Below are positions 4,981 to 56,347 of a stretch of DNA of 64,000 nt, piece after piece. Within the stretch, counting starts at the first letter, position 1; each line of letters starts with the position of its first letter. The stretch lies in assembly GCA_016617855.1 (NCBI GenBank), contig JAECUM010009300.1, positions 1 to 64,000 of the forward strand, in the 5' to 3' direction. The translations under genes and the position numbers were made by a program. The notes below the pieces were generated by a model. That model was given only the letters and a program-made list of their open reading frames with translations, was not told the origin of the DNA and searched no databases. Source of the DNA: Megalonaias nervosa. Its lineage: Eukaryota; Mollusca; Bivalvia; Unionida; Unionidae.

Positions 4981-7900
4981 GTAGGTAAATATAAGCAAAA
5001 ATTCAATACTACATCTGTATCAGTATTTCACACAGTTTTTCCACACGAGGAAAAAGAATCTGAATAGAATAATACAGGGATGAAAGCAGGAAGGTAAAAA
5101 GTGATTGGAAGGTTGATGAGTGAACAGATGGTTAGAAAGAAAGAATAATTGAAAGTCTTGTTTACGGATTAAACATTCTAGAGAACACACCCCAAGATAG
5201 AGTCATTTTATTGTGTTCAGGGAAAATGGAGAGCATGTGATGTTTGGATTAATTAGCCACTTGAAGATTATAAAACGTTCATGGAAGGATATATCTCTAA
5301 TGCAACTGATCTTTGGTGTTAATTCGTCATTGAGATGGATTAAACTTAGAGCATTGTGTTCACTGATTTATTTCTGATTAAGACATTGTTTTTGATATGT
5401 GTTCAATAAACAAGGAAAAACCCATAACCTTTTGTTGCATACAGATGAATATAAAGTTTGGATAATGGCTTTCATAGTATCTTTTCACTTTCTTAGTGCA
5501 GCTCAATTTCTTAATGTACACAGATATAACAATTAGCATGTACATTATGCCTGAACTGGAAGCGTGAGAGATCTTTTTTCATACCTCTTAGCTTGCTTCT
5601 CCTTAGAAGGGATATGTACAGTATTCCTTGTCAGTATGAAATAAATAGATGATTTTTAATTTTTCGTAGATGCTGGAATTTGGTGATCAAAGAGCTCACT
5701 TCCAAGGCCTAGTTGATTGCGGTAAGACAACTTTAAGCCATCTTCTGCTGTCCAGTTGGGAATCTGTTATGGAAGTGCCGCCATATCCTCCCACCAGTGG
5801 AAAATATGCTGTTTATACAATTAATGACCTTACGAAACATATCAACTTTGCTGTAGAAAAGGTGGGGATCTACGGTCATGACCGTTTATTTAGATAACAT
5901 CCTTGTAGATCATATCTCTTCTGTGACCATTTTTATATAACATTTGGTCATTGATATTTTATTATACTCCTGTGGTGTAGATTGATTGCTGTCCCTTATA
6001 GAGTCGAGTATTCAGAAAATTTTTCTGTCCAGACCTGTATGATTCCACTCAATTTTCAATTTATTTATGCTACTTTATAATTTTCAGAATGTTTTTAAAA
6101 GATTTATAAAGTTTTTGATGTATTTTTCAAGAGCTTGCTAACAGACAATTTTGAGGAATTGCAACACAGGTGTTAAAAGTTGTAAAATGCAGATCTTTGA
6201 GTTTGTACTTACATGTATATTTGAACTCAAGTAAGCTTAAACATTTCTAGATATGCCATATTTATTTACACATTCTTTGGGATAGCAAAGGCACTGTAAA
6301 TCGCTATATCAGGAACAGTGTAATGTCAGTATTATTTTACCTTTTACTATGGCATAGCTAGTACTTTTTTGGGAGGAAAATACTCAGCCAAATGACATAA
6401 AATTCCATCCTTCCATAAGTGCGAACCAGAATCTTCCAGAACACTATATCAGCCCTGTGTGAGAGCCCCATACATTGGGTATGCATGAATAACCCTCTCA
6501 TATATTATTCAGTGGCCATGTTGTAAAGTTCAACATTGTTTACATAAAGAGCATTAGCTACCTTTTATGTGTATCAATGAGCAGATTATTTTGTCTTCAA
6601 GGTGTGGGCAAGTGTGGCCTCAAGAAATCTCCTTGAGACATGTAACCCCACTTATTTATTCTGTATGCATTCTAAGAGGTCAGAAGGCTGATGTATCATT
6701 ATCTCCATTCTGTGAGGGTAGAGAGTGAGTCATGCCCCTCCAAGAGTGAGGAAAAGCACTCTCACTTTACCATTAGGATAAGTCGTGCCCTCCCCCATGT
6801 CCAAACAAGCAGAAAGAGATTCATGTCCTGCCCCACAAGCAAGGGGGGAGCAGCACCCTCTACTGACCTACATCTTGATAATGGCTGATTGTGTGCCAAG
6901 TCCCTGTAAGGTGGGTGTAGTACCCGTTGAGCCTTAAAATACCGTTGTTGGTTGATGCAGTCTAGTCCCCTGAAGAAGGGAGTGCTTAGGTCCAAGTCTG
7001 TCAGATCTGAAGATGGCTTATCCTACAGATTGGAGTCACCTGCAGTCCTTTTCTGGTGTACCTGTCACCGGGTACTGAGTGCCAGTCACTGATCAGTGAG
7101 CTTGGGTCTTTGGTGCCCATATGGTATGGAGATGGGTATCAGACAGACTCCCCTCTCTTTCCAAACTACTTTTTCATTGTACAGGGAATTGGCTTACAGA
7201 TGGTGGATGGAGAATTGCCTTAAATCACCAAGAAAGATCACTGCTTGAAACAGTTTGTTTTCTTCTTGGGAGGATTTTCCAGATTAAGTTTCTTCTCCCA
7301 CCAAGTCTTCCTCTAAGTAGAAAGACAGTGGGTTCCTAATCCTGCCTCCCACGAGAGAGTGCAGGATGAAGATGTCCATTCTGTTCTATTGAAGTCAATG
7401 AGTTTGACTCGAGCAGGGCAATGTGGTATCATCTACATTTGGATAACCTTTCCCATCTTAACCTTTAGTTGAGGAGGCAGATGAGAAAGAATCCTGATCA
7501 TTTGATAAAGCTGTGAATGAGGCTTACCACCTCTTGCCTAATGATCTGTGTGCAAACCTTCAGTTTCTTGTGACTATAAGTTACTTTCTAGTTTAGAGAA
7601 ACTTTCTCAGTCAAACTCTTGAATTATCTGTTGCTCCTTCCTCACTCCAAGTAGTTTTCTTCAAGAGTTAGCAAGAGCCAAGCCTTTCCAAGACACCATA
7701 GTGAGTGGTCGGTCCCTACCTCAGTGTTAAAACTCATGATAACTAGCTTCAAGGCTTATACAGTGGTCCCCCCTCTTAATACTGCCACCCCTTCTGCACC
7801 AGGAAAGTGGCCTTATAAGACGGGTGGCCTTTCCAGAGGGGGATTATATTTGTGAGATGTGTATGTATATATATAGTAGGAAAGCTATATATAACTTAAA

Positions 7901-41999: not shown

Positions 42000-42250
42000 C
42001 TAATCCCACAGGTGTAATTAGTGCTTAGCTTCCATGTTGTTTTCTCAGCATATGATAGGCTATACATGGCAGCCTGTATGATTGATTAAGGAAAAACATG
42101 TGAGGGCCCCAGGAAGTCCCACAGACCTGCGGGAAGCAACTAGAACGCTTTCTCAAATACTCACGTTGGCCTAGCTGTGACTCAGTACCACACGGAAAGA
42201 GTTGAGAGCGCGAGCGCACTAGACCATTCGGTCATATGGTGGCCGTGACT
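42000..42250 (-). mobile_element. tRNA-derived SINE, diverged
   Basis: Shares the catatgataggctatacatgg and gctttctcaaata blocks with the SINE at 52667-52931. The tRNA-like head is at the right (box A region in gcgcactagaccattcgg, reverse strand). It lies immediately left of the virus-like element. Confidence 0.7.
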
Positions 42251-42334: not shown

Positions 42335-42763
42335 ATGGCTCTGCTAACGCATGCTGATTTAGTTATGTATAATTGTATACTTTTTGCATCTACCATAGTT
42401 GCTTGAACAGTAACTATAATCGGAGTATTATCCGCCACATACATAATAGCACCACGAATAGGAATTGGTGTTGCAGTCATAACCATTGTTCCTGGTATTC
42501 TCAATATCATCGCAAAAATGCTATCCACGTGCGCGGCTGATAAAGTACACGAATATACAACATTGCTATCAGCGGCAACACAAGCACACGCCAAATTATC
42601 ATCGCTGATATTATCAGGGCTCAATGATGGAATGATATCAGATCAGGAATTCGCAGGAATGATTAAGGTTTACTATGAAGCAACTGGAAACCAACCCCTT
42701 GACTGTCAAGGATTAGAATCCCCAGGGGAAGACTTTGACAAAGACAGATATTTAGATCCCTGA
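42335..42763 (+). pseudogene. Small hydrophobic virus-element protein, one stop
   Basis: One frame runs from ATG 42335 to TGA 42761, about 142 codons, interrupted only by TGA at 42404. The N-terminal half is hydrophobic (two likely membrane stretches, around VTIIGVLSATYIIA and IGIGVAVITIVPGILNII). The C-terminal half is a charged helix region ending with LSSLILSGLNDGMISDQEF, resembling a ...LNDG.ISD.EF... motif I recall from uncharacterised proteins next to such elements. Function unknown, possibly a minor virion or membrane protein. It is the first gene of the plus-strand left cluster; the next ATG is 12 bases downstream. Confidence 0.55.
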
Positions 42764-42774
42764 TTTAAATAATA

Positions 42775-43215
42775 ATGTCGCAAGATCAATCATTGCGATT
42801 GCTAGAACAAATCGTCGCTAATACAACACTACCAACAATACAATGATATCAGCAATGTCAACTAAGCCTGAGTTTGATGTTAGCTTTCCAACGGCAATTC
42901 CAGCCAAGGATATAGCTCTAGCACAATTGCAAGTAAATTACAGCTGACCAAATATTAGAACAAAGTCAGTCCGTGGGTTGCAAACAAATAATTCATTGGT
43001 ATTTGCGTATAAAAATAAGTCTGATGGAACGCCAGACTGAAATGTTGTGGGCATATCTACAGGCAGTTATCAAATCGAACAGATCAACAATGAGTTCAGC
43101 ACAGAATCAAATCTCGCACAGGAAAAGTATCCAAGATAGCTATCACGTTTCATGAGCCAACTTTATCAACCGTGTTAGAAATATTTGCGCCAGATTATGC
43201 CATCTATATATATCA
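42775..43215 (+). pseudogene. Capsid-like structural protein, N-terminal part, broken
   Basis: After an ATG at 42775 the frame stops and continues from 42843 in another frame. There, FDVSFPTAIPAKDIALAQLQ, a YS.PNI stretch, ISTGSYQIEQINNEF and TFHEPTLSTVLEIF follow in order. This order (an '...ALV.LE.Y.S.PNI' strand, then 'P.GSYEI..IN.EI', then 'I....TL...L') is that of a structural-type protein I recall from adinto/Polinton-like elements. In-frame TGA codons at 42945 and 43038 sit at probable Trp or aromatic positions, and a frameshift lies near 43130. A capsid role is inference. Confidence 0.5.
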
Positions 43216-43254
43216 GTCGTAGATCCGAACTATGTTAGGATGGCCAAAAGTACA

Positions 43255-43910
43255 GTGACCAGCACCTCCAGCACCACCACACCCTCAACGATCTGACTAT
43301 TCATCAGATAAGCAAATATTCTTAAACCTTCCAGAGTATCGAAAAACTTTTCCATGGAAATATATGGCAAAAGCCAGTAGCATTATTATTGACAAGGGGA
43401 ACTCCAAGCCAGTGGATGTTGTGAGTGAATATTTTACTGCGACTGATGGTACAAGATTTCCTATATTATTATGAACATGTATATTCCTGTGATGATAATA
43501 CTGTAGAAAGACGCATGTCGACGAAGGTTATATTAAGTCATTTCCTAATGCCATTAGGCCTGAGCACCAGCAAGTAAGCAGCAAACTGCGACAGTCGTTT
43601 TCCAGTTACATACAAGAATATCTCAATGACGATCGAAAGCAACAAATTGTTTGCAATGATACAGCACCCAAACCAGATTGTATCCAACTTCAAGTTTATC
43701 CATCGGGTTATTATTGAAACAGTGATTGCTACTGGTAATAGCTTCGCCGAGATTTCACCTCCTTATTTAATGACAATTAAGCTCAGACACTATGCAATTA
43801 CAGAAGCAGAAGTACCAACATTAATATTACCACGATTGAACACCGATGAGTTGACAAAAACCGTCAGTGATATCTTTGATGAATATTTTCCAAAGATACT
43901 AGAATCATAG
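43255..43910 (+). pseudogene. Unrecognised virus-element coding remnant
   Basis: An open stretch ending at TGA 43474-43476 encodes PPAPPHPQRSDYSSD followed by YRKTFPWKYM and DVVSEYFTATDGTRF. After about 150 bases of broken frame a 94-codon ORF (43626-43910) reads MTIESNKLFAMIQHPNQIV and then FAEISPPYLMTI. Composition is coding-like and the strand matches the neighbours. It lies between the N- and C-terminal parts of the capsid-like protein, so either two genes alternate here or something was inserted. I do not recognise the family. Confidence 0.4.
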
Positions 43911-43942
43911 AGAAAATATCCCCTCTTCCAGGCATTCAAACC

Positions 43943-44259
43943 CATAACAATGATCCAGACGGTGGTGGTCGTCATGTATCACCAGGTGTGGTCCATATCA
44001 TATCAACAATCGCAGTCAATCTCGTGTGTGATGCTATTGATGGCAGCTCTCAAGTAATCTTGAAAGATCCAGGCAGGCACAACAAGGATATATCCTATAC
44101 TCATTTACTCCTGAAGTTCCACCTGGATATTTAATTGTGTCAGTACCTGTTAATCCAGTTTATCTGAGATGTCATAATCCGCTATTGTCACGGATATATT
44201 TCAGACTTACTGACCAGCACAGACACCTTCGTGATTTAAGAAATGAATTTTATCGGTAA
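43943..44259 (+). pseudogene. Capsid-like structural protein, C-terminal part
   Basis: Begins with HNDPDGGGRHVSPGVVHIIS and, after a frame change near 44070, continues YSFTPEVPPGYLIVSVPVNP and RIYFRLTDQHRHLRDLRNEF to TAA 44257. The 'F.P.VPPGY.I...P..PVYL' and 'V.L.DQ.G.L.(D/N)(F/L)RGE' pattern is the C-terminal half of the same family as 42775-43215. It ends short of the usual last strand. Probably one gene with the N-terminal part, separated by about 700 bp. Confidence 0.55.
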
Positions 44260-44427
44260 GTTTGTATGTGAGATCGTGAGACTAGTGCGTTTTGTCCCCT
44301 GACACTAATCAGTGACAATAGTCAGGGATAATAGACAGAGATTATCATTCGGTGTTACAACTTTCACTTTCACAATTCGATTGTTTACAATCATACATAC
44401 TTTTTTTCAACTGTCATGCAAGTGCAC

Positions 44428-44604
44428 TTACGGTCTTTTTGTTGCATATTCTTGAGACAACACTGATCTAATTTTCTCAATCGTCTGTTCTAGTGGATCG
44501 AATTGCCGGACGTTTGTATCATCACATATGTAAGCTAGTGTTTGTTTCATTGCCTGTTGGAAGAATTTAATAAACCTGTGTTCGGTTGCTGGTGTGTATC
44601 TTCT
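44428..44604 (-). pseudogene. Possible small minus-strand gene fragment
   Basis: An open minus-strand stretch of 58 codons encoding RRYTPATEHRFIKFFQQAMK and then FDPLEQTIEKIRSVL, ending at a TAA. It is polar-helical and looks like a conserved small protein, but no start codon is in frame and the family is not recognised. Confidence 0.3.
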
Positions 44605-45180
44605 TCAGATTTTCTTTCTTTCAGTATTTCAGAATCATTTGTCATTTTTTTTCCAGGATGAAGTTGATCGGAAAGTTGTATACCCATACCACAGGTGGAA
44701 GTTGGGTCATGTAATTATTGAATCGCAGAAATAATCGCATTAATATTTTTGTGATTCATTATATAATAAAGATATTACTTTATTACATGTTGTTTTAAGT
44801 AGCAAAAATAGACAGTATGAGCTGAGCAATTTGCCATTCCATGGGGTCCCTTCATGGGGTACCCTTCAATGAGGCTTATTCTTTCTGGCTGACAGTTCTT
44901 TGGTGTCTTTTTATGGCTGTCTTTAATGAGGCTGTGTATTTCTGGCTACCTCCACTTGTGGAGGGGCTCATCACTCTTACTATTTTTACAATGAGGCGGG
45001 GGCTCCTGTTTTTGCACCTCATGAAATCAACAGATTTATACTGATAGCTTTTAAATTTTTTGCACACCTCCCCAAAATCAAACCTGGCAAGTGCAAAATC
45101 AACACCCACCACGTTGTTTGACATGGCGGGGAGGTGTACTTTATCATTAAAATTTTTCTAAAGGCTGGAGCCCCCAATTA
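44605..45180. other. Left non-coding part of the element, nothing firm
   Basis: Mixed sequence with short ORFs on both strands (44841, 44876) that show no convincing family. The basic minus-strand ORF might be a virion core-type protein, but this is only a guess. Confidence 0.3.
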
Positions 45181-45300
45181 TTAAATGCGATTTATTGCAG
45201 CTGTCGACAAAACTGTCAGTCACGGGATTGGAACGCCAGTTTCCACACATTGAGAGTGAACAGCCAGATCACTAACCTCTTGGCCACGAAGCCTTCTTAC
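45180..45300 (-). mobile_element. tRNA-like SINE head inside the element
   Basis: On the minus strand, ggcttcgtggccaagaggtt (box A-type) and ggcgttccaatccc (box B-type) have normal spacing. Probably a SINE that inserted after the viral element. Confidence 0.5.
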
Positions 45301-45732
45301 TATTATATGTTTCAAAAATTATTATGAAATTACCAATATCTTGAAATCCGAAAAATAACATTTGGGGCGTGGCCTATTCCTTGTCAGGGACAAGCACTGC
45401 TACTATTATTCATAGACCCCCTGGTGTGTTAAACCAGGGCTTTGTCAAGGACCACCTGAAGCTTGCCCTCCCTGCCCTCCTGTTCCTCTTGTCCCTGGAT
45501 AAGGACAAGGACAAGGGTAACATTTTTAAGAATACTGCGGAAATTCAGGAACCCCATGATTGTGAGCTGCAGCTGTCATAGAATATTACGCAGTTGATAA
45601 CAGTGCCTTGTAACATGGATACAAGCAAGGCTACTGGATTGGTACTGTTTAATCTTTTGTAAGCTTTATTTCCCGGAGTTATCTCCCTTCACCTGGAGTG
45701 TTTCCCAGAGTGAGATTCTGAAACATTCTTGT
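45301..45732. other. No recognised feature
   Basis: A 70-codon plus-strand ORF (45369-45581) includes a lysine/aspartate repeat (DKDKDKG) from the tandem text ggacaaggacaagg. No family recognised. Confidence 0.3.
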
Positions 45733-46212
45733 TTATTTGTATTTCTTTGAAAATGATGATTCGGTTATATTACCTGCGACACATTGTTCCGAAGCCCGGT
45801 GAATATCGAAATGTTTGGCAGCTGAATATATCGATGGAAATTCTATTTCGTCGCCCGTCTGTGGATTTACAGATTTAACCGGTCTTGGATGATCATTATT
45901 ATTTCCAGTATTTCCTCGTGCAGAATTCTGAATCTGTGTAATACCCTGAATATTATTCAAAGAATTATCCTTGGATCTGAATCAATGTGATCCATCACAA
46001 AACCATCCCCGATCAGGCCAAAGTAACACTCATACACAAATCTGTGACAGAGATAACTTTTTCCCAACAGTGAATTTTAGATAACCGGTATTACTAACAG
46101 AACCGATCAGTCTTTTTAGTCGACAGTGCCTAATTACACCAGCACGCTATGCCTCATAATTCTTGATGATGGGATGCGCTACAAATTCATCAATGCTATT
46201 TCCTTGCTCCAT
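45733..46212 (-). pseudogene. NUMOD4-HNH-NUMOD1 endonuclease, broken
   Basis: Homing-type endonucleases of this architecture cut DNA through a His-Me-finger (HNH) core and bind it through NUMOD modules. From ATG 46212 (minus strand): FVAHPIIKNYEA then a stop, RAGVIRH, GSVSNTGYLKF (NUMOD4-like), HRFVYECYFGLIGDGFV, MDHIDSDPR (HNH core: D-H and the following N), NNIQGITQIQNS, then the NUMOD1 helix-turn-helix IEFPSIYSAAKHFDIHRAS near the end. There is an in-frame TAG near codon 21 and at least two frameshifts. It lies on the strand opposite to the polymerase and ahead of the cysteine-rich gene. Confidence 0.7.
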
Positions 46213-46315
46213 TTATACAGTATATATCACTTGTCTAAATTATTATTTTATTACTAGAAAATATGTGTAGGATGCTGATAGCCCGAAAATCTAGCGAGAT
46301 AGTCTCCAGCATCTT

Positions 46316-46570
46316 TTATCGGAGATTCATTACCATCATTTCTTTATCATAGTACCGTTTCAAAGCTCTGTATTTTCTGTCTCCACAGTCTACACACAAT
46401 TGCGTTTTCCCCCTGTCTCCCTTATTACATTTCAAACACGGCTTTGGTCCTAAACTATCTCGTCGCACAATCTGCAGGTGGTATGTACAGAAATCCGTTA
46501 CACAAGACTTATTACAAGGAGCTGTAGATCCAATCATCAACCACTTGCAACTATTCTTTGCTTGAATCAT
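46316..46570 (-). CDS. Intact 84-residue cysteine-rich (zinc-ribbon-like) protein
   Basis: ATG 46570 to stop 46316, uninterrupted. Cysteine/histidine pairs: CKW...C..SC....C.YH in the first half, then CLKC and C.DC in the second (PCLKCNKG, LCVDCGDR), which suggests two zinc sites. A basic, charged C-terminus follows (RKYRALKRYYDKE). I recall similar small proteins beside the same polymerase-helicase genes, but no function is known to me; nucleic-acid binding is a guess. It is divergent with the polymerase gene, with only 52 AT-rich bases between starts. It is the only complete gene in the element. Confidence 0.6.
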   Translation of the reverse strand: MIQAKNSCKWLMIGSTAPCNKSCVTDFCTYHLQIVRRDSLGPKPCLKCNKGDRGKTQLCVDCGDRKYRALKRYYDKEMMVMNLR

Positions 46571-46622
46571 CGGATATTATAAATTGAAGTTTAATTTAAA
46601 TATATCTTTGGCTTAATTATAG
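46571..46622. promoter_or_regulatory. Candidate divergent promoter region
   Basis: 52 bases, almost all A/T (aagtttaatttaaatatatc), between the divergent starts of the cysteine-rich gene and the polymerase gene. A TATA-like taaatata is present. A bidirectional promoter is inferred from layout only. Confidence 0.3.
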
Positions 46623-49600
46623 ATGGAGAAATTTACAACATTATCTGTGATCAAGCCCTCTAAAGCTACATTTGATCTTGACAGAATAATCCCTGAATTA
46701 CCGAGGCGAGCTCTGGTTGATGTTGGTCCTGAGTCGACGAATCAGACTCTAATCAATACTATCTGTAAATCCAAGAGAGAATTTCGCAACGATGACGCGG
46801 CTTATGTATGGTCAACATTCAGAATTAGGCAAGACGATAAACCCCAGATTGATGCTACAATGAATGGCCAGCGAGCAAGGAAAATCATTAATTATCTAAA
46901 CGAGCAAAGATACCTTTGTAGAATAGAATTCATCGCTGCTCTACTCCTGGCAATACCAGGGACTGTGTCAGGGGCAATGCCAGGAGTGGCAGACGCCGAC
47001 GACGTAACATGGATAATCCATGACGAACGTGACCCTGTTCGAGAATCACACTTCGCTGGGGATGTTGTCACGTTAAGTAAAAATTCCAAACCAGGGATGC
47101 TGACGGATATCGACAATACATATTATGAGCGATCATACCCTGTGACGGTAGTTGTTTATGCGATATATCCGCTGAATGATAAGCCTAGCGTTGATGATCT
47201 TCGACCGATGAGAGTTTCGATCGCTAGCGATCATCTGAATTGTGTAGCCGAAAGAGTCACAGAACATTTTACAAACGCGTTACGGGGAAATGGTCTAACA
47301 GATCTGAGACGTAAAAAGATAAATGAGTGGGCTGAATGTGTTAGACAAAATGGAGCTACGATCAGAGACGTTGCTGAGTTGGAAACGAAATTAAAATTTC
47401 CAAAAAGGGTGAAGACACTGACCGGCGAGATTTTATACGAATCAAAATATAAATCAAGGGGAGCTTCGATAGAGATCATTGATCATAACGCGCACACGTG
47501 GACGCCAGACGTAACATTATTTCCACAAACTCGAACTGTTAAATTTTATGACGGTGATATGTTCGATTTTATCAGAAATATCAGCAAGTGCGACCCTGTG
47601 TCCGTGTGGCTGTTTCAAAGTTCGGAGTATAGCTATTATGATCAGTTTGTGCGGCCTAATGGCGATCTTTATCGCACTGAATCTCTTCATTCAGAGATGA
47701 CAGAGATTGCGTTGAAATGCACGAACGATACTGATGTTATTAAGCGATTACTCGGTAATTGCATCACTGTTCCTTCAGTTGCTGCTCACCTTGTTCAGAA
47801 GGAAAATTCATGGAGGCCATCACGTTGGAATTTCTTGGAGATATACAACGCAGTTGTGTCGAATACGGACAAGGCGGATTGTGGAATACTGACTATGATT
47901 GTGGAGATGTTATCTCAGTTGATATGGCTGCATGGTACCCCAGAAGCTTTCTCGGAATGGGCGCGTAGTGCTATGTATTTTAAAAGATTTGGACATCCAA
48001 CATACGAGATGACATGGGTTGCGATAAATGGACCCTTGCCAGATTTCGACTTAAGTGGATTCGCATGTATTAAGTCATTCGAGTTTGCATTCTCACCGAT
48101 AGAATCGGAATGCCTCCATGCGGTTGTCACTGTTTGGTTTGGTCGTCATTTCAATAAATCCGGGAATGATGAATGTGCAAAACGTGGTCGGGTTCCAATA
48201 GTGTTATTGCGATACATGCTTGATGCAAAGATATTGATATCGCTAACTGTGAGTGAAGCAATAATAACTTATTGCGTACAAAAACAAGTCTGGCTACCAA
48301 AACCTGTTGGAAGCGATAGCTTGGCCCTTAACAGAGTCAAGGACAGCGTCAATGAAGTTGCACTTGCAAAAGAGCTGGGCAGAAAAATAATTGGGAAGTT
48401 TATACAAGGAGCATTATGTGATCATAAACGGCATTGCACAAGATTAATCGTCGACGATGCGGAGCTCGATTTCATAATTGCTGATACAACAAAGAAAAAT
48501 ATATTTGTACATCGAAACAATGTTAACCTATCAGATGGAACCAAACTAGGCACAACTGTAGCTTCATTGATGGTGACTCACCACAGTTTACTCATTTAAA
48601 ATCTTTGAGGTTAGATTATGTTTCGATAAACTTATTATCGATGATAAACATATTTCCTGAGGAAGCTGTTAGAGTCGCCACAGATTCATTTTATATCAGT
48701 GAAAAAAATGTAGGATTGCTAAATGAATTACAGATCGGCGTTGATGCACCATGGGGCGAGTGGAGAGTGAAAAAGTAAAGATACTCAGTTATTCTGAATC
48801 TGCTGATTATAAACCTGTTCAGATATATTACAAAAATAGTCAAATGTCACAAACATCATCAGTACCATCGGTATATGATCCTGTGGTTAGACATAAAACC
48901 GTTTATCTCAACGGACCGGCGGTTCTGGTAAAACAACACGCGCGATTGAATTATTTTGGAATCTTGATATGATTGTACTAACTTCGACTCATCGACTCGC
49001 CAGAGAGATGAAAGAAAGAGGGGTTAAATCTCATAGTTATCACAGTTTCTTTCGATGGAAGGGAGACGCGTGGACACTTGAACGAATGGCTGAGAAATAT
49101 ATTCCTAAGATCATTATCTGCGATGAGATATGCATAGAATCCGTGGACGTTTTAAAGATGTTTCTTGACTGGTTATTGACTCGGAATACTGCTGTTATCA
49201 TGTGTGATGATCATGGTCAACCACCACCTTTTGTCGGCTCATCTCCGCATGACTGGCTGCGAGAATTTATAGATTATTATGAGAAGATATTTGACGATCA
49301 CCGGGCACTTGATTCGACGCTGAGGGAGTTTAAGAAGTTAATCAGGCTGCAGCCAGATAAGATTCAATGGGAGATAATGCGTAAGGTAATTCCAGAAACA
49401 AAGAACGACGATTTTTGGAAATTGTGGAGGCCTGCTGATTTGATAGTTTCAAGTCGGAAGATAGTTCATGATTCACTTCAGCAGCAATTATTTTTGTTAC
49501 ATAACGAAAAATGTTCAAATCTACCTGTTCCATTGTGTTATCGCCAAGCAGGTACACGTAAACAAAATATTTATGTTGAGATTCCTGGGGCCAATGGGAA

Positions 49601-50159
49601 ACAAAAACTTGCATTAAATGATATTGTTTTGGTTCCGATTGATGTTTTGAGAAAGCCTTAACATAGCCATAGTGCTGGACTTTAGGATATTCAATAACAA
49701 TTCATTCATCGCAGAGACTGAAAATCAGTGATACCAGTATTTGGATTGTCGATAATCGTATCGAATGGTCCAACCTAATTTTTCTGGCAGTATCTCGGGT
49801 CAGGAAAATGTTCCACCTATGGAGAATTGTGCTGGATAACTGCACCATTATGGATAATAGTGAAACTCAGGGCAATGTCGATAAAATATTGGCTGGTTAT
49901 CAATGGTGTGACAAAAAATTAACGCGACTTCAATGTTAAGTTTATCATGACACTGAAACAACAACAAAATAATCACTGTGCTTGCTGTAACACAGTAATG
50001 TTGTGGCAGTATTCTCCTAATGACCCACGAGAGTTTACCGTGGATAGAATTAATAGTAGTCTCGGCCACACACGCGAAAATGTGATGCTGACCTGTCTTG
50101 AGTGTAACGGACGTAGAGGAGCTGGTGTCCTCCTAGCGAATCACCCTTCACAGAAGTAG
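46623..50159 (+). pseudogene. Family-B DNA polymerase - SF1 helicase - HNH fusion, broken
   Basis: A replication protein of about 1,150 codons. A long open stretch (46623-48599) holds the N-terminal region and most of PolB. Motif A (SVDMAAWYPRSF, about 47915-47950) is in a different frame, and frame returns near 47975 (FGHPTYEMTWVAING), so two compensating frameshifts hide it. A motif-B-like GKFIQG follows near residue 592. Motif C-like VRVATDSFYI is at 48668-48697 in another frame. The helicase follows: Walker A GGSGKTT at 48918, motif II ICDEICIE, motif III CDDHGQPPPF and conserved IRLQPDK in the 48969-49661 frame, then motif V TIHSSQ (49694-49714) and VI LAVSRVR (49784-49804) after a stop and frame change. 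The HNH end (49947-50159) has CACC, FTVDRINSSLGHTREN and CLECN. The whole is expected to be one protein replicating the element. At least five breaks. Confidence 0.75.
49947..50159 (+). pseudogene. HNH nuclease domain at the end of the polymerase-helicase
   Basis: CxxC near the start (CACC), a D-R-I...H..EN core (FTVDRINSSLGHTREN) and a second CxxC (CLEC) form a zinc-bound HNH fold. An upstream lysine-rich helix (MTLKQQQNNH) leads in. By position it is the C-terminal domain of the fusion, separated now by a frame break near 49925. The ATG at 49947 is probably internal. Confidence 0.7.
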
Positions 50160-50163
50160 GCCT

Positions 50164-50780
50164 TTACAAGAGTGAAGGCGGTGGTAATTGTGTATCTTCA
50201 AGAATTGCTTGTAACTGTTCACGTACAAATCCACTTTGAGGAGCAGTTGAATCTAGTTTGTAGATTGCAGGTCAACCCGTGGATCTTACCACGCTGGAAA
50301 TTTTATGCGTGGTTACACTCCAGACTCGGTCAGTCGCTCTTTTTTTACCCCCTCTCTCAAGCTCCCCCGGCTCATATAAATATCTGACAGTCACATTACC
50401 TAGTACTGGTTGTTTTGAGAAAGACCATGTCGCTTAAATGGTATGTGTTTCTTCGAGATTGCATTGATGGGGGTCATATAAATTCCAAGAGTAATTTCAT
50501 TATTTAACGCTATCAGACTTGGTAGTCTTGCAACCTATTCACGAGATCTCTTGTCCGCCTGAACTTTGTTCAGGGATATTTCCTGCGCATACGTCTGTCC
50601 AAACAATCGCTCAGCAAGTGTTTGATTAAATTGCTCAATGATTGCCTGATCGCCATAAATTTTAGTATGGACCTCGTCAGATTTTGACGTTATGTTGTTG
50701 CATCAGCAATGTTACTGCACAAAAAAATTCTTTGCCAGATCAACCTGTAGCAACTGTGGCCATCGCAGGTCGCCACATTG
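50164..50780 (-). pseudogene. Retrovirus-like (rve) integrase, C-terminal part only
   Basis: Integrases of this kind insert viral DNA into the host genome with a D,D-35-E active site. On the minus strand: LLQVD (second catalytic Asp), then after a break GDQAIIEQFNQTLAERLFGQ (catalytic Glu in IIEQFN), YAQEISLNK, VARLPSLIALNNEI, then a C-terminal domain with VTVRYLYEPGELERGGKKRA, TDRVWSVTTHKI and SGFVREQLQAILEDTQLPPP before TAA at 50164. The C-terminal YEPGEL...RATD..WS pattern is one I recall from integrases of such elements. The part with the first Asp is absent, and several stops and frameshifts are present. Confidence 0.7.
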
Positions 50781-50835
50781 ATAAAGTCGTTAAAATGCAG
50801 ATGCAACTGCCCGTTTGCAATATGTCGTTGTTGTA
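50781..50835. other. Deletion junction between integrase and PLA2 genes
   Basis: Recognisable integrase begins at about 50780 already inside the catalytic core, and the PLA2 protein becomes unrecognisable after about 50836. Both genes are on the minus strand, so one deletion probably removed the PLA2 C-terminus and the integrase N-terminus together. Confidence 0.45.
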
Positions 50836-51184
50836 GACCTGGATTTTATACGAGACATCATGAACGTGGCACGCTTGATCAATCGCATTTATTGGATATT
50901 CTCCAAGTCTTGATTGATCCTTCTCGTCAATTCAGATATCAAGTCGGGTTCCAGGACCACAATACTTATATCCAGGAAGATGTTTCTCGCCAGGATACTC
51001 AGTTCATGGAGCCATAGTAATTTTTCCAGTAAAGCAGCCGATATCTCCGCCTGTTGCATGAGAGATAAATTTGTAATTTTTTGTACCACATTTCACACCT
51101 GCCTATAAGTGCACGCTTTATATTCCTCGTCGTTATTGTTTTTAATCCTCTGGTCCAGTGGGTGCTCTGCATCGAACACAATAT
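50836..51184 (-). pseudogene. Zinc-ribbon plus parvovirus-type phospholipase A2 protein
   Basis: Minus strand. At 51184-51040 a short cysteine motif region reads YCVRCRAPTGP ... KCGTKNYKFI (two CxxC-type pairs, like the small zinc-ribbon DUF5679-type virion proteins). After GGDIGCFTGKITMAP comes LPGYKYCGPGTRLDI (calcium-binding loop) and INAIDQACHVHDVSY (catalytic His-Asp of PLA2). This loop-plus-HD pair is the signature of the VP1 phospholipase of parvoviruses, also present in adinto- and Polinton-like elements, where it is thought to breach the endosome during entry. TGA codons at 51004-51006 and near 50938 and a frameshift/stops near 51100 break it; the C-terminus is missing. Confidence 0.7.
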
Positions 51185-51216
51185 AAAGCCATATAATTAT
51201 TATATATTTCTACAAC
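51185..51216. promoter_or_regulatory. Candidate divergent promoter region
   Basis: A short AT-rich gap (aattattatatatttc) between the divergent starts of the zinc-ribbon/PLA2 gene and the ATPase gene, with a TATA-like tatatatt. Inferred from layout. Confidence 0.25.
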
Positions 51217-51880
51217 ATGAATGTCATTGATTTCTCAGCGACACGAAAGCAAGAGCCAATCAAGCATCATACTGCGCTACTAAATTCTATCAGAGCAATT
51301 AACATAGGTCCATCTGGGTCTCGTAAAAAGCAATTGTTGCTTAACCTGATAATGAGATGGCTCAAGTGGGATAAGTTGTATTTAGTGGCACCGTCTGTAG
51401 ATGATCAGCTATGCTACGACGTGCTTAAAGATTTTAATAAAAATGCAAAGTTGTTGGACGAGAACGGCAATGATATTACTGATTTTATCACCGACATCAA
51501 CGATGCGCCTTTGGTAGATGATCTCAAAGGGGGCATCAACAATCTCGTAGTATACGATGATGTGATGCTAGACAAACAATCAAAAACAACTCGGATATTT
51601 TCCCGAGGCAGACACAAAACACCGATATTATATATGTTACTCAGCGATATGCGCAAATACATAAAGTGATGAGAGATAACTGCAATCTTCTGGTTATCTG
51701 TAATGGTGTTGATATCCACACACTAAGAAACATCCACCAGACTTGGTTTTCAGGGGACATGGATATAATTCAGTTTAAAAACTTCTCAAAAGCGCAAGCG
51801 ATTCCGCATGGATTTATCAGATAAATTTACATGATCCTCGGTCGCGATATCGCATAGGTCTCGATAAAATGTTTGTTTGA
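51217..51880 (+). pseudogene. A32-type genome-packaging ATPase, one main frameshift
   Basis: Packaging ATPases of the FtsK/HerA class pump viral DNA into capsids. ATG 51217 opens 150 codons: EPIKHHTALLNSIRA, a P-loop reading GPSGSRKKQ, and Walker B NLVVYDDVM. The frame shifts near 51622. The other frame carries YVTQRYAQIHKVMRDNCNLL and DIHTLRNIHQTWFSG, and a further shift leads to LHDPRSRYRIGLDKMFV and TGA 51878. The order (HHT.LL, GPSG.GK, Y.D....., T.R....H..R.N.N, ...RYR.GLD) matches ATPases of these elements. The P-loop lacks the second Gly and the Ser/Thr, so it could not bind ATP normally. Confidence 0.8.
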
Positions 51881-51908
51881 GAAACCTGTCACCTAACCGC
51901 TACGCTAC

Positions 51909-52159
51909 AGCAGCGGGGTGGGTGAATGACGACCAACAGTGAATGTTCCGGGTCGGTAAACGAGGACGCATAATAATTTGACACACAAGCGTCAAGAGAA
52001 AAAATAAAATGCGCTAACCCTGTAGTGGCCTCGGTTTAGTGCAACCCGGTTAGAGATCTAGGTTTAGCGTTATTGACGCTTGTGTGTCATTTTCGTAGGC
52101 GGTTTTATTTTCACAAATGGAATGTTCTAAAAAGTAGTATCTTCACCCACTCTGCTGCT
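51909..52159. repeat. Imperfect palindrome at the right edge of the element
   Basis: Outer arms 51909-51926 and 52142-52159 (agcagcggggtgggtgaa against its complement, 16 of 18). Inner arms 51979-51995 and 52073-52089 (tgacacacaagcgtcaa, 17 of 17 perfect). Together they form a nested fold-back of about 250 bp. It could be a small MITE or a remnant of the element's terminus. No matching copy was seen at the left end. Confidence 0.7.
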
Positions 52160-52569: not shown

Positions 52570-53789
52570 GAGTGGTAGTTAAAGAAAAAGTTAGTAGCAG
52601 TTATGATTGTAGAAGTAACGCCGCTAATGGAAATAGCATTAGTGGTAGTGGTAGAAGAAGACGAGGATTTTTGTTGTTGTTGTTGTTGTTGTAGGGTTTA
52701 ACGCCATTTTTCAGCACACGATAGGCTATACATGGCGGCCAGTATTAATGGTGGAGGAAGAACCCAGGTAACCCCGGAAAGAACCACCGACCCACGAGAA
52801 GCTACTGGCAAGCTTTCTCACATATCCACATTGGCCGAATCCGAGACTCGAACCCACGCAGACAGAGGTGAGATGGCAGTGATCCGTAACGGTGAGCGCT
52901 TTAGACCACTAGGCTAATCGGGGCCTCCAGGAGACGAGGCAGTTAGTAGTATAGTAATAGTAGAAGTAAAAATAGTAATCGCCGTAGTAGTAGTAGTAGT
53001 AGTAGTAGTAGAAGCAGAAGCGTTAAAAGTAAAATTACTGGTAATATTGTAGGTATGACAGGCAGAAAGGGGCCGAAGGATGCAAAATATGGAAACTATG
53101 TATACAAGCACTCATATTTGCTGTCGCAGTAATATATGATCTGCTCGTGTCACTACCGTCTAACTATCTGCCTTAGCATGTACTAGACTCCATCCACTTG
53201 AACAAGATACACCTCTCTCAGGTTATCACTTTAAGTTTCCACGAATAGCCCTCCACTTATATGATTAAAATTTGCCCGAGTTAGGTCATGTTTTATGATG
53301 TAGCTCGTTGCTATGTTCATGCAAAAATTCAATGCACTGATAAGTCGTTTTACTTAAAAGAAGATTTTGTCTTTGGAAATGAAACAAGTGTCACACATAT
53401 AAAGGAGTGCACAAGTTATTTCAAGAAGCTTCATTATTAAGGAATTTATATGAATTTCGTAAGTATGAGTTCTCTGTATATGATTTTTCAACAAATTACA
53501 TGTTCTTGGAATATACTATTTTTTCAGACCAATGCCATTCATATTGCAATGTGTGCATAGATCAGTGAATTTCTATGGTGTCAATGTCAAAATTAAATTG
53601 GAATGTTTTCGTACTTAATAAAAACAGCCCATGCCGTATTTGAAAAGAGACATACATTAACAGGCAGCCTTAATGAAGTACTTATATCAATCTTTGCGTA
53701 CAACTTTACCTTAGATTCCATTACTCAAGGGAAGCGGGGGATATGGATTTACCTGTAATGCTCGACTTCATTATATCAGGGGAATCGCG

Positions 53790-55547: not shown

Positions 55548-56347
55548 CCCATGTTATTATTAGTAGTAGTGGTATTCGAAGTTAATAGTAGTCAAAAGTA
55601 ATTCTACTGGTATTAGTACCAGTGGAATACTAAAAAGTAAGTAGTAGTGGTAATAATAGAAGTAATACGAGTAGCAATAATAACTGCAGCAGAAGCAGAA
55701 GAAGAAGCGGAATCGTTCAATGTTAAAGTACTAGTATTAGTATAGGTAGACCAGGCAGTTATTTTTGTGAACCTAACGGTAGATAGGGACCGACAGATGC
55801 AAAACTGGAAGATGTTTATGCAAGCTCTGTTGTCTTCTGCCACAGTAATCTGTCATTTATGCGTGTCACTACCGTCTATCTGTCTGCCTTGGCATGTACA
55901 AGACCCCATCCACTTGAACAAGATACACTTTATGTTTCCACAAATAGTCCTCCACTAATATGATTAAAATTTAGCTAGTTTAGGTCATGTTTTATGGCGT
56001 AGCGCGTTGCTATGTACATGTCTAAAATCTCTGCAGAGATTAGTCCTTTGCTTAAAAGAAGGTTCTGTCTTGGAAAATGAAACAAGCATCCCACATCGAA
56101 GGGAGTGAACAAGTTAATTCGAGAAGCTTACATTTTAATGAACTTATATAAATTATTTAAGTACGAGTTCTCTATATATGATTTTACAACAAAATACATA
56201 TTCTTGATATATACTATTTTTAAGACCACTGCCATTCATATTAAATGCGTATCAGATGTGTGAATTTCTACGGGGTCAATGTGTGATTTGAAATTGAAAT
56301 TTTTTTTGTACTTAATAAAATCAACCAATCTCGTATTTGAAATTCCG
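55548..56347. repeat. Duplicated module, copy B
   Basis: Matches copy A (52570-53650) without the SINE, which shows that the SINE inserted after the duplication. Interrupted at 56347 and resumed at 58877-59040. Confidence 0.85.

Follow-up and report, generated by a model that had tools for sequence, protein, structure and literature searches.

The question raised by this locus is whether a cluster of broken genes in the genome of the unionid bivalve Megalonaias nervosa is the debris of a plain transposon or of an integrating virus, and, if the latter, of what kind. The cluster lies within positions 1–64,000 of the forward strand of contig JAECUM010009300.1, and this whole stretch of 64,000 nucleotides is called the window below. 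A preliminary description, made from the letters alone, had placed at 42335–51880 a fossil integrating DNA virus that resembles polintons and adintoviruses and has an unusual replication protein, and had left it outside any named group. The linked genes, the element ends and a fused replicase found in the follow-up analysis all supported such a virus: the window very probably contains an endogenous virus of preplasmiviricot type, a "Tlr1-type polinton", in the form of a dead and truncated copy; the virus has spread to thousands of ends in this genome.

The identification rests on relatives, because the window's own Pfam matches were weak: among 10 window pieces only three matches had an E value (E) below 0.001 (AAA_19, 1e-4; AAA_30, 2e-4; Phospholip_A2_4, 8e-4), all of them under the curated cut-offs. 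The relatives were sought in the assembly of the same genome (2.19 Gb, 54,709 contigs). In the family recovered there, genes for a double-jelly-roll (DJR) hexon, penton, A32-type ATPase, PLA2, rve integrase and a replicase with a superfamily 1B (SF1B) helicase were linked between inverted repeats bordered by duplications of 5–6 bp. The preliminary description had made its case depend on whether such genes are ever linked in relatives, and they were: among 31 element ends an ATPase match was present within 1.5 kb of the terminus in 15, accompanied by PLA2 in 11 of those 15, and the integrase was reached in 8 of the 31. The gene order was the same in three relatives (C3396, C39813 and C33), running from protease-like, fibre-like, hydrophobic protein, penton and small protein genes through an HNH nuclease and a cysteine-rich protein on the opposite strand to the replicase, an integrase and PLA2 on the opposite strand, the ATPase and the end. 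Furthermore, three of the 65 listed replicase contigs also carried a listed hexon, each about 9 kb away and on the same strand.

With no more than one mismatch allowed, a terminal motif of 24 bases occurred 2,875 + 2,897 times in the genome, compared to 0 + 0 occurrences of the reversed pattern; if most of these ends belong to elements, the latter would, very roughly, make up 40 Mb, or near 2% of the assembly. Among 100 listed places there were 14 adjacent pairs of plus and minus ends on one contig, of which 11 spanned 13.2–16.5 kb, two 7.4–7.8 kb and one 29.8 kb. The two close pairs (C414:7640-14995 and C497:79416-87248) suggest shorter, possibly non-autonomous members. Four copies with both ends read were 13.2–16.5 kb long, with the following terminal inverted repeats (TIR) and target site duplications (TSD):

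C39813 copy: TIR of 1,016 bp (95.9%), TSD of 6 bp
C33 copy: TIR of 281 bp (97.9%), TSD of 5 bp
C47 copy: TIR of 58 bp (96.6%), TSD of 5 bp
C128 copy: TIR of 278 bp (97.8%), TSD of 5 bp

In the window, tblastn with the relatives delineated one broken, truncated integrating virus-like element at 42356–52159. Every gene named in the preliminary description was present in pieces and matched its own-genome relatives far above chance, as follows:

42356–52159, plus (orientation of the replicase): whole decayed element from the tblastn gene map, with a truncated left side and a degenerate terminal motif as the right end
42356–42742, plus: hydrophobic protein gene remnant, residues 47–169 of 178 (tblastn with L031:1696-2232, 37%, E 2e-14)
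42840–44247, plus: penton (minor capsid) gene remnant with several frame changes (tblastn, best piece E 1e-44)
44434–44759, minus: remnant of a gene for 105–147 amino acids (aa), function unknown (tblastn with L031:4833-5150, 48% and 40%, E 4e-6 and 4e-11)
45718–46212, minus: stand-alone HNH (NUMOD-type) nuclease gene remnant (tblastn 43%, E 2e-32)
46340–46570, minus: cysteine-rich small protein remnant (tblastn 56%, E 7e-26)
46641–50233, plus: replicase gene, OTU-like, palm-like, SF1B helicase and HNH parts fused (tblastn with the 1157-aa open reading frame (ORF) L031:6169-9642)
47909–47941, plus: palm motif A remnant, VISVDMAAWYP (ORF 47759–47968; motif alignment)
48668–48700, plus: palm motif C, VRVATDSFYIS (ORF 48527–48778)
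48918–48941, plus: helicase Walker A, GGSGKTTR (ORF 48897–49661; AAA_19 E 1e-4, under cut-off)
49914–50135, plus: C-terminal HNH nuclease part of the replicase (PHROG endonuclease VII E 1.8e-8; tblastn 68%)
50188–50861, minus: rve integrase remnant, residues 97–319 of 326 (tblastn 53–81%, E 5e-63)
50845–51270, minus: PLA2 protein remnant (tblastn 54%, E 1e-44)
51217–51874, plus: A32-type packaging ATPase remnant in three frame pieces (tblastn 60–89%, first piece E 3e-66)
52144–52159, minus: degenerate terminal motif, probable right end (2 mismatches to AGCAGCAGGNAGGGTG)

The right edge, previously drawn at 51880, thus moves to near 52159, as indicated by the degenerate motif and by an alignment of the window with the relative L034, which runs up to the right terminus with a score of 102.5 against 28 or less in 200 shuffles; the terminal-like motif had three matches in the window compared to 0.47 expected. 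The left end of this copy was not found, the element breaking off within the hydrophobic protein gene near 42356, and no match to the hexon, the protease or the fibre-like gene was obtained for it, barring one stray weak match at 37.4 kb. The inverted-repeat search around the copy found only a direct pair, resembling a short interspersed element (SINE), which flanks it at 42041–42208 and 52707–52873 (72% over 170 bp) and looks tRNA-derived; ARAGORN, run on the window under the bacterial genetic code, reported no tRNA. At the right edge, two inverted terminal-like motifs (51909–51924 and 52144–52159) stand 235 bp apart around an imperfect inverted repeat (51967–51995 and 52073–52101); the arrangement may represent a short inverted-repeat element nested there, or else an end that has been rearranged.

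The PolB, helicase and HNH genes listed separately in the preliminary description are all present, but as one fused gene and not three. Its product is a single protein of about 1,160 aa with OTU-like Cys/His motifs, palm-like motifs A, B and C, an SF1B helicase and a C-terminal HNH nuclease. In the window it is broken into at least seven pieces in shifting frames (52–83% identity, E down to 0), with an uninterrupted frame of 658 aa at 46623–48599 in the stop-to-stop ORF list; the motif A remnant is read in frame 2 inside this frame-3 ORF, its commonest form in the family being SIDMKACYP. The palm-like and OTU-like assignments are weak, being read from ordered motifs without significant homology. 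Among 20 long homologues, A, B and C came in order in the motif alignment, the first Asp of motif C was replaced, with TDS in 19, and the OTU-like motifs NC and HNxH[AT]W were present in 19 (the remaining row being a gap) and in all 20, respectively. Walker A was found in 19 of the 20 and the HNH motifs in 15; the five remaining rows had gaps or diverged at that place. Pfam recognized HNH in the L031 replicase at E 0.17 only; the window HNH piece matched phage endonuclease families, with the best E at 1.8e-8. The SF1 helicase was C-terminal, in a protein within the size range of the Tlr1-like type (about 1,000–1,400 aa), and no exonuclease family was detected in the replicase. A Protein Data Bank (PDB) sequence search with the homologue P0001 gave one helicase below E 0.001 (RecD2, 2.8e-5), and PDB searches with the window ORF, the penton profile and the hexon N-half gave nothing useful. 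In the replicase model motif C falls in a beta hairpin and the OTU-like Cys begins a predicted helix; the fold comparison listed only chains aligned over 735–1080, which is the helicase part, and is silent on the other domains. The top BFVD match of the model was a nameless entry, H6WBE3 (999 aa, E 1.2e-15).

A search with the 658-aa ORF against 5.8 billion proteins produced four matches, the best being P0001 (1058 aa, 52% identity), and a repeat search with the alignment of these four yielded 53 replicase homologues (P0001–P0053). Most were nameless; those with a named source came from the freshwater mussel Sinanodonta woodiana (P0023), the stony coral Desmophyllum pertusum (P0032) and metagenome-assembled genomes of Candidatus Thiodiazotropha (P0022, P0053). 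The latter organisms are symbionts of lucinid clams, which makes host contamination likely for both proteins. Penton homologues were named from Potamilus streckersoni and Sinanodonta woodiana. After omission of short sequences, 34 of the 53 homologues remained in alignment A2 (P0005 first) and 28 in a midpoint-rooted tree of 33 rows, together with four own-genome copies and the window ORF. The window and own-genome copies formed one group (100/98) adjoining P0001; this group, P0001, P0002, P0003, P0005, P0006 and P0023 stood on one side of the root, and P0032 and P0022 on the other. The window branch was long (0.6 versus 0.06–0.16), as expected from its decay; the placement of P0023, itself on a long branch, is unsure. 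Pattern scans of IMG/VR viral contigs (window ORF, alignments A1 and A2, hexon C-half, ATPase) and of GTDB genome contigs (replicase) confirmed no relative; both needed exact short patterns and are therefore weak evidence of absence, and the former result means that such searches may overlook the lineage.

The word "fossil" is apt for the window copy, which is dead and truncated, but it does not simply describe the family. Among 69 replicase rows, obtained from the best 67 scored of 26,846 first-look candidates, 13 had frames of 1,039–1,189 aa with a match free of stops, while the others carried stops; in the C3396 relative the fused replicase is a single frame of 1,157 aa. The ratio of nonsynonymous to synonymous substitution rates (dN/dS) was 0.16–0.24 in all six usable replicase pairs (L022, L023, L028, L031), so that the replicase genes of these four loci were under selection in the recent past. 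The comparison comprised 21 pairs: these six, three between HNH genes (0.24–0.30; the longest ORF in L016–L018 was the HNH gene) and 12 mixed ones, which carry no meaning and were set aside.

The other genes were also better defined in the relatives. The "capsid-like" gene of the preliminary description is a capsid gene remnant, although of a penton and not of a hexon; the penton is a single jelly roll. The ATPase of a relative matched Pox_A32 (E 2.3e-11, over the cut-off) and its PLA2 protein Phospholip_A2_4 (6.2e-13) and DUF5679 (8.6e-12). The predicted NUMOD-HNH gene was recovered as the HNH remnant at 46212–45718 on the minus strand (E 2e-32); its counterpart in a relative matched HNH_3 at 1.5e-12 and NUMOD1 at just 0.057, below cut-off. 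The integrase L030:553-1533 matched rve at E 2.8e-7 (31.2 bits, the cut-off being 32.6) and also an IS481-type transposase at 3.8e-14, under its cut-off. No Pfam family over the cut-off was found for the fibre-like, hydrophobic and cysteine-rich proteins, and the fibre-like, membrane and zinc-finger labels are putative, given by reading of repeats, hydrophobic runs and cysteines. In the window (44434–44759) and in L034 (7208–7513) the gene for 105–147 aa is opposite to the replicase, but C39813, C3396 and C33 have both genes on one strand; subfamilies may be set apart here by an inversion. A second hexon gene (L032:8690-10000) starts about 7 kb downstream of the ATPase of the C3396 copy, preceded by a p97 match at 7059–7295, and another family copy may adjoin there. 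Two candidates were dropped: a 501-aa protein as the major capsid protein, after fold comparison, and a hexon-less family, an idea from the 13.2-kb copy, once the C33 copy had been read.

Taken together, the gene set suggests a cycle in which the rve integrase would insert linear element DNA and the replicase would copy it by protein priming, a terminal-protein-like N-terminus possibly being freed by the OTU-like protease. Extension would fall to the palm and opening of the duplex to the helicase, which would stand in for a proofreading exonuclease; the A32-type ATPase would package the DNA into a hexon/penton capsid matured by the adenain-like protease, and the fibre and PLA2 might serve entry.

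A number of results weigh against this reading or parts of it. No Pfam polymerase match was found for the palm in 34 homologues, and no DNA_pol_B_2 at E 0.1, while the same model found other PolB genes of the genome at 6.6e-18. In hhalign, the replicase showed no significant similarity to phi29, to PRD1 or to a polinton PolB of the same genome; with the palm only, the best local alignment paired the two C motifs (E 0.1), and 9 of 60 shuffles reached the global score. A terminal-protein domain was not identified in the replicase. The models of the replicase and the penton were middling (mean pLDDT 65.8 and 60.4), and the adenain-like protease matched Peptidase_C5 below cut-off (E 0.021 and 0.012). 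The replicase of C3396 has an open frame in which some motif residues, the second His of the OTU-like motif among them, depart from the family form, so that an open frame does not show activity. All four copies had TIRs, but the TSD was 5 bp in three and 6 bp in one, and polinton target duplications are 6 bp. The 13.2-kb C39813 copy had no detectable hexon.

The hexon question bears on the rival that survives best, although it is improbable: a capsid-less self-synthesising transposon or a transpoviron-like plasmid keeping some virion genes. Such an element would fit the absence of a hexon between the TIRs of C39813, the lack of hexon, protease and fibre-like genes in the window copy and the two of 14 end pairs just 7.4–7.8 kb apart, but it is contradicted by the 16.5-kb C33 copy, which has a penton, an ATPase and a DJR hexon in two overlapping frames (PF21738, E 4.9e-8 for the C-half, over the cut-off, and 8.8e-4 for the N-half, under it). 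In addition, the best 150 of 30,017 candidate loci found with the hexon N-half, its own locus included, all had at least 83% identity, many with open frames of 468–469 aa.

Still less probable is an ordinary polinton or adintovirus whose usual protein-primed polymerase (pPolB) gene has merely decayed in the window copy. The integrase, ATPase, hexon, penton and PLA2 genes belong to types that occur in those elements, and ordinary pPolB genes do exist in this genome: among 12,983 candidates for DNA_pol_B_2, many of the 75 scored PolB loci had frames of close to 1,367 aa, and the partly read PolB of C7000 (C7000:44300-47300, L069) has the standard motifs DVCSLYP and DTDS. However, none of the 75 listed pPolB contigs was among the 65 replicase, 150 hexon or 81 end contigs listed. 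Judged by the pPolB gene, ordinary polintons therefore appear to coexist on other contigs. The single fused frame of C3396, the 13 stop-free rows, the absence of DNA_pol_B_2 from the 34 homologues and the lack of a usual pPolB between the ends of the three copies read also contradict decay as the explanation. The chance neighbourhood of a Helitron-like or other cellular Pif1 helicase element and an unrelated polinton can practically be dismissed, as OTU-like, palm-like, helicase and HNH motifs share one frame in C3396 and in the long database homologues, and integrase follows the replicase in C39813 and C33, with integrase and PLA2 matches after the window replicase as well.

Elsewhere in the window, blocks at 53085–53645 and 55801–56342 are duplicated (79–92% alike, at a near-constant spacing of 2.7 kb), and positions 1–1044 consist of a 37-bp unit in 28 tandem copies.

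The endogenous virus reading places the family close to several known systems. With animal polintons/Mavericks and adintoviruses it shares the rve integrase, DJR hexon, penton, A32-type ATPase, weak adenain-like protease, inverted repeats and short target duplications; adintoviruses also have PLA2. It differs from them in the fused replicase in place of the usual pPolB and in the 5-bp TSD of three of the four copies. OmPLV of Oxyrrhis marina likewise fuses an SF1 helicase and pPolB in one protein (PMC12721341), but its helicase is N-terminal and the exonuclease is kept, in contrast to the C-terminal helicase and the absence of a detected exonuclease family here. Transpovirons, as published, share the Tlr1-like helicase architecture; they are giant-virus episomes of about 7 kb, whereas the present family has capsid genes, an integrase and chromosomal copies with target duplications.

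The closest match is the Tlr1-like fusion of pPolB with a superfamily 1 helicase (pPolB-S1H), the architecture of which is described in PMC11071308; in this and other papers such fusions are described from a ciliate, from algal, metagenomic and cryptophyte PLVs and from transpovirons (PMC12721341, PMC11071308, PMC11071296, PMC3671162, PMC4642659, PMC10120064, PMC12220804, PMC10294476). The element is therefore comparable with a named type, by description only, where the preliminary description had seen no named group. As in Tlr1 of Tetrahymena and Tlr1-like polinton-like viruses (PLVs), the protein is large, with an N-terminal extension, OTU-type Cys/His motifs and a palm-like motif C without the first Asp; as in Tlr1-like pPolB-S1H, no exonuclease family accompanies the C-terminal helicase and a C-terminal nuclease, of HNH type here and GIY-YIG or HNH in the type. 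According to a published description, Tlr1 too combines an rve integrase and an A32-type ATPase with a hexon and a penton. The present family has in addition a weakly matching adenain-like protease, a fibre-like protein and a PLA2/DUF5679 protein, and it stands apart in its occurrence in animal sequences, with thousands of ends in one genome. PLV-like elements in animals have been reported from insects with entomopoxviruses and from stony corals (Barth 2024 and Stephens 2024, as cited). The literature covered, partly in excerpt, reports no Tlr1-like replicase in bivalves or other animals, although Krupovic 2016 and Stephens 2024 (coral polintoviruses) may describe relatives. A separate undescribed lineage of animal viruses has in our view an even chance of being real. 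Its members, DJR viruses that integrate in bivalves and corals, would replicate by a protein-primed fusion of polymerase, helicase and nuclease in place of the usual pPolB of animal polintons; they would produce new copies still or until recently and live beside ordinary polintons in one genome, with two replication strategies competing in the same host. The presence of a Tlr1-like replicase in the chromosomes of an animal, accompanied by virion genes and represented by thousands of ends, would widen the host range of that replicase, and the trade of exonuclease for helicase proposed in PMC11071308 would become testable in one genome that holds both kinds of replication gene.

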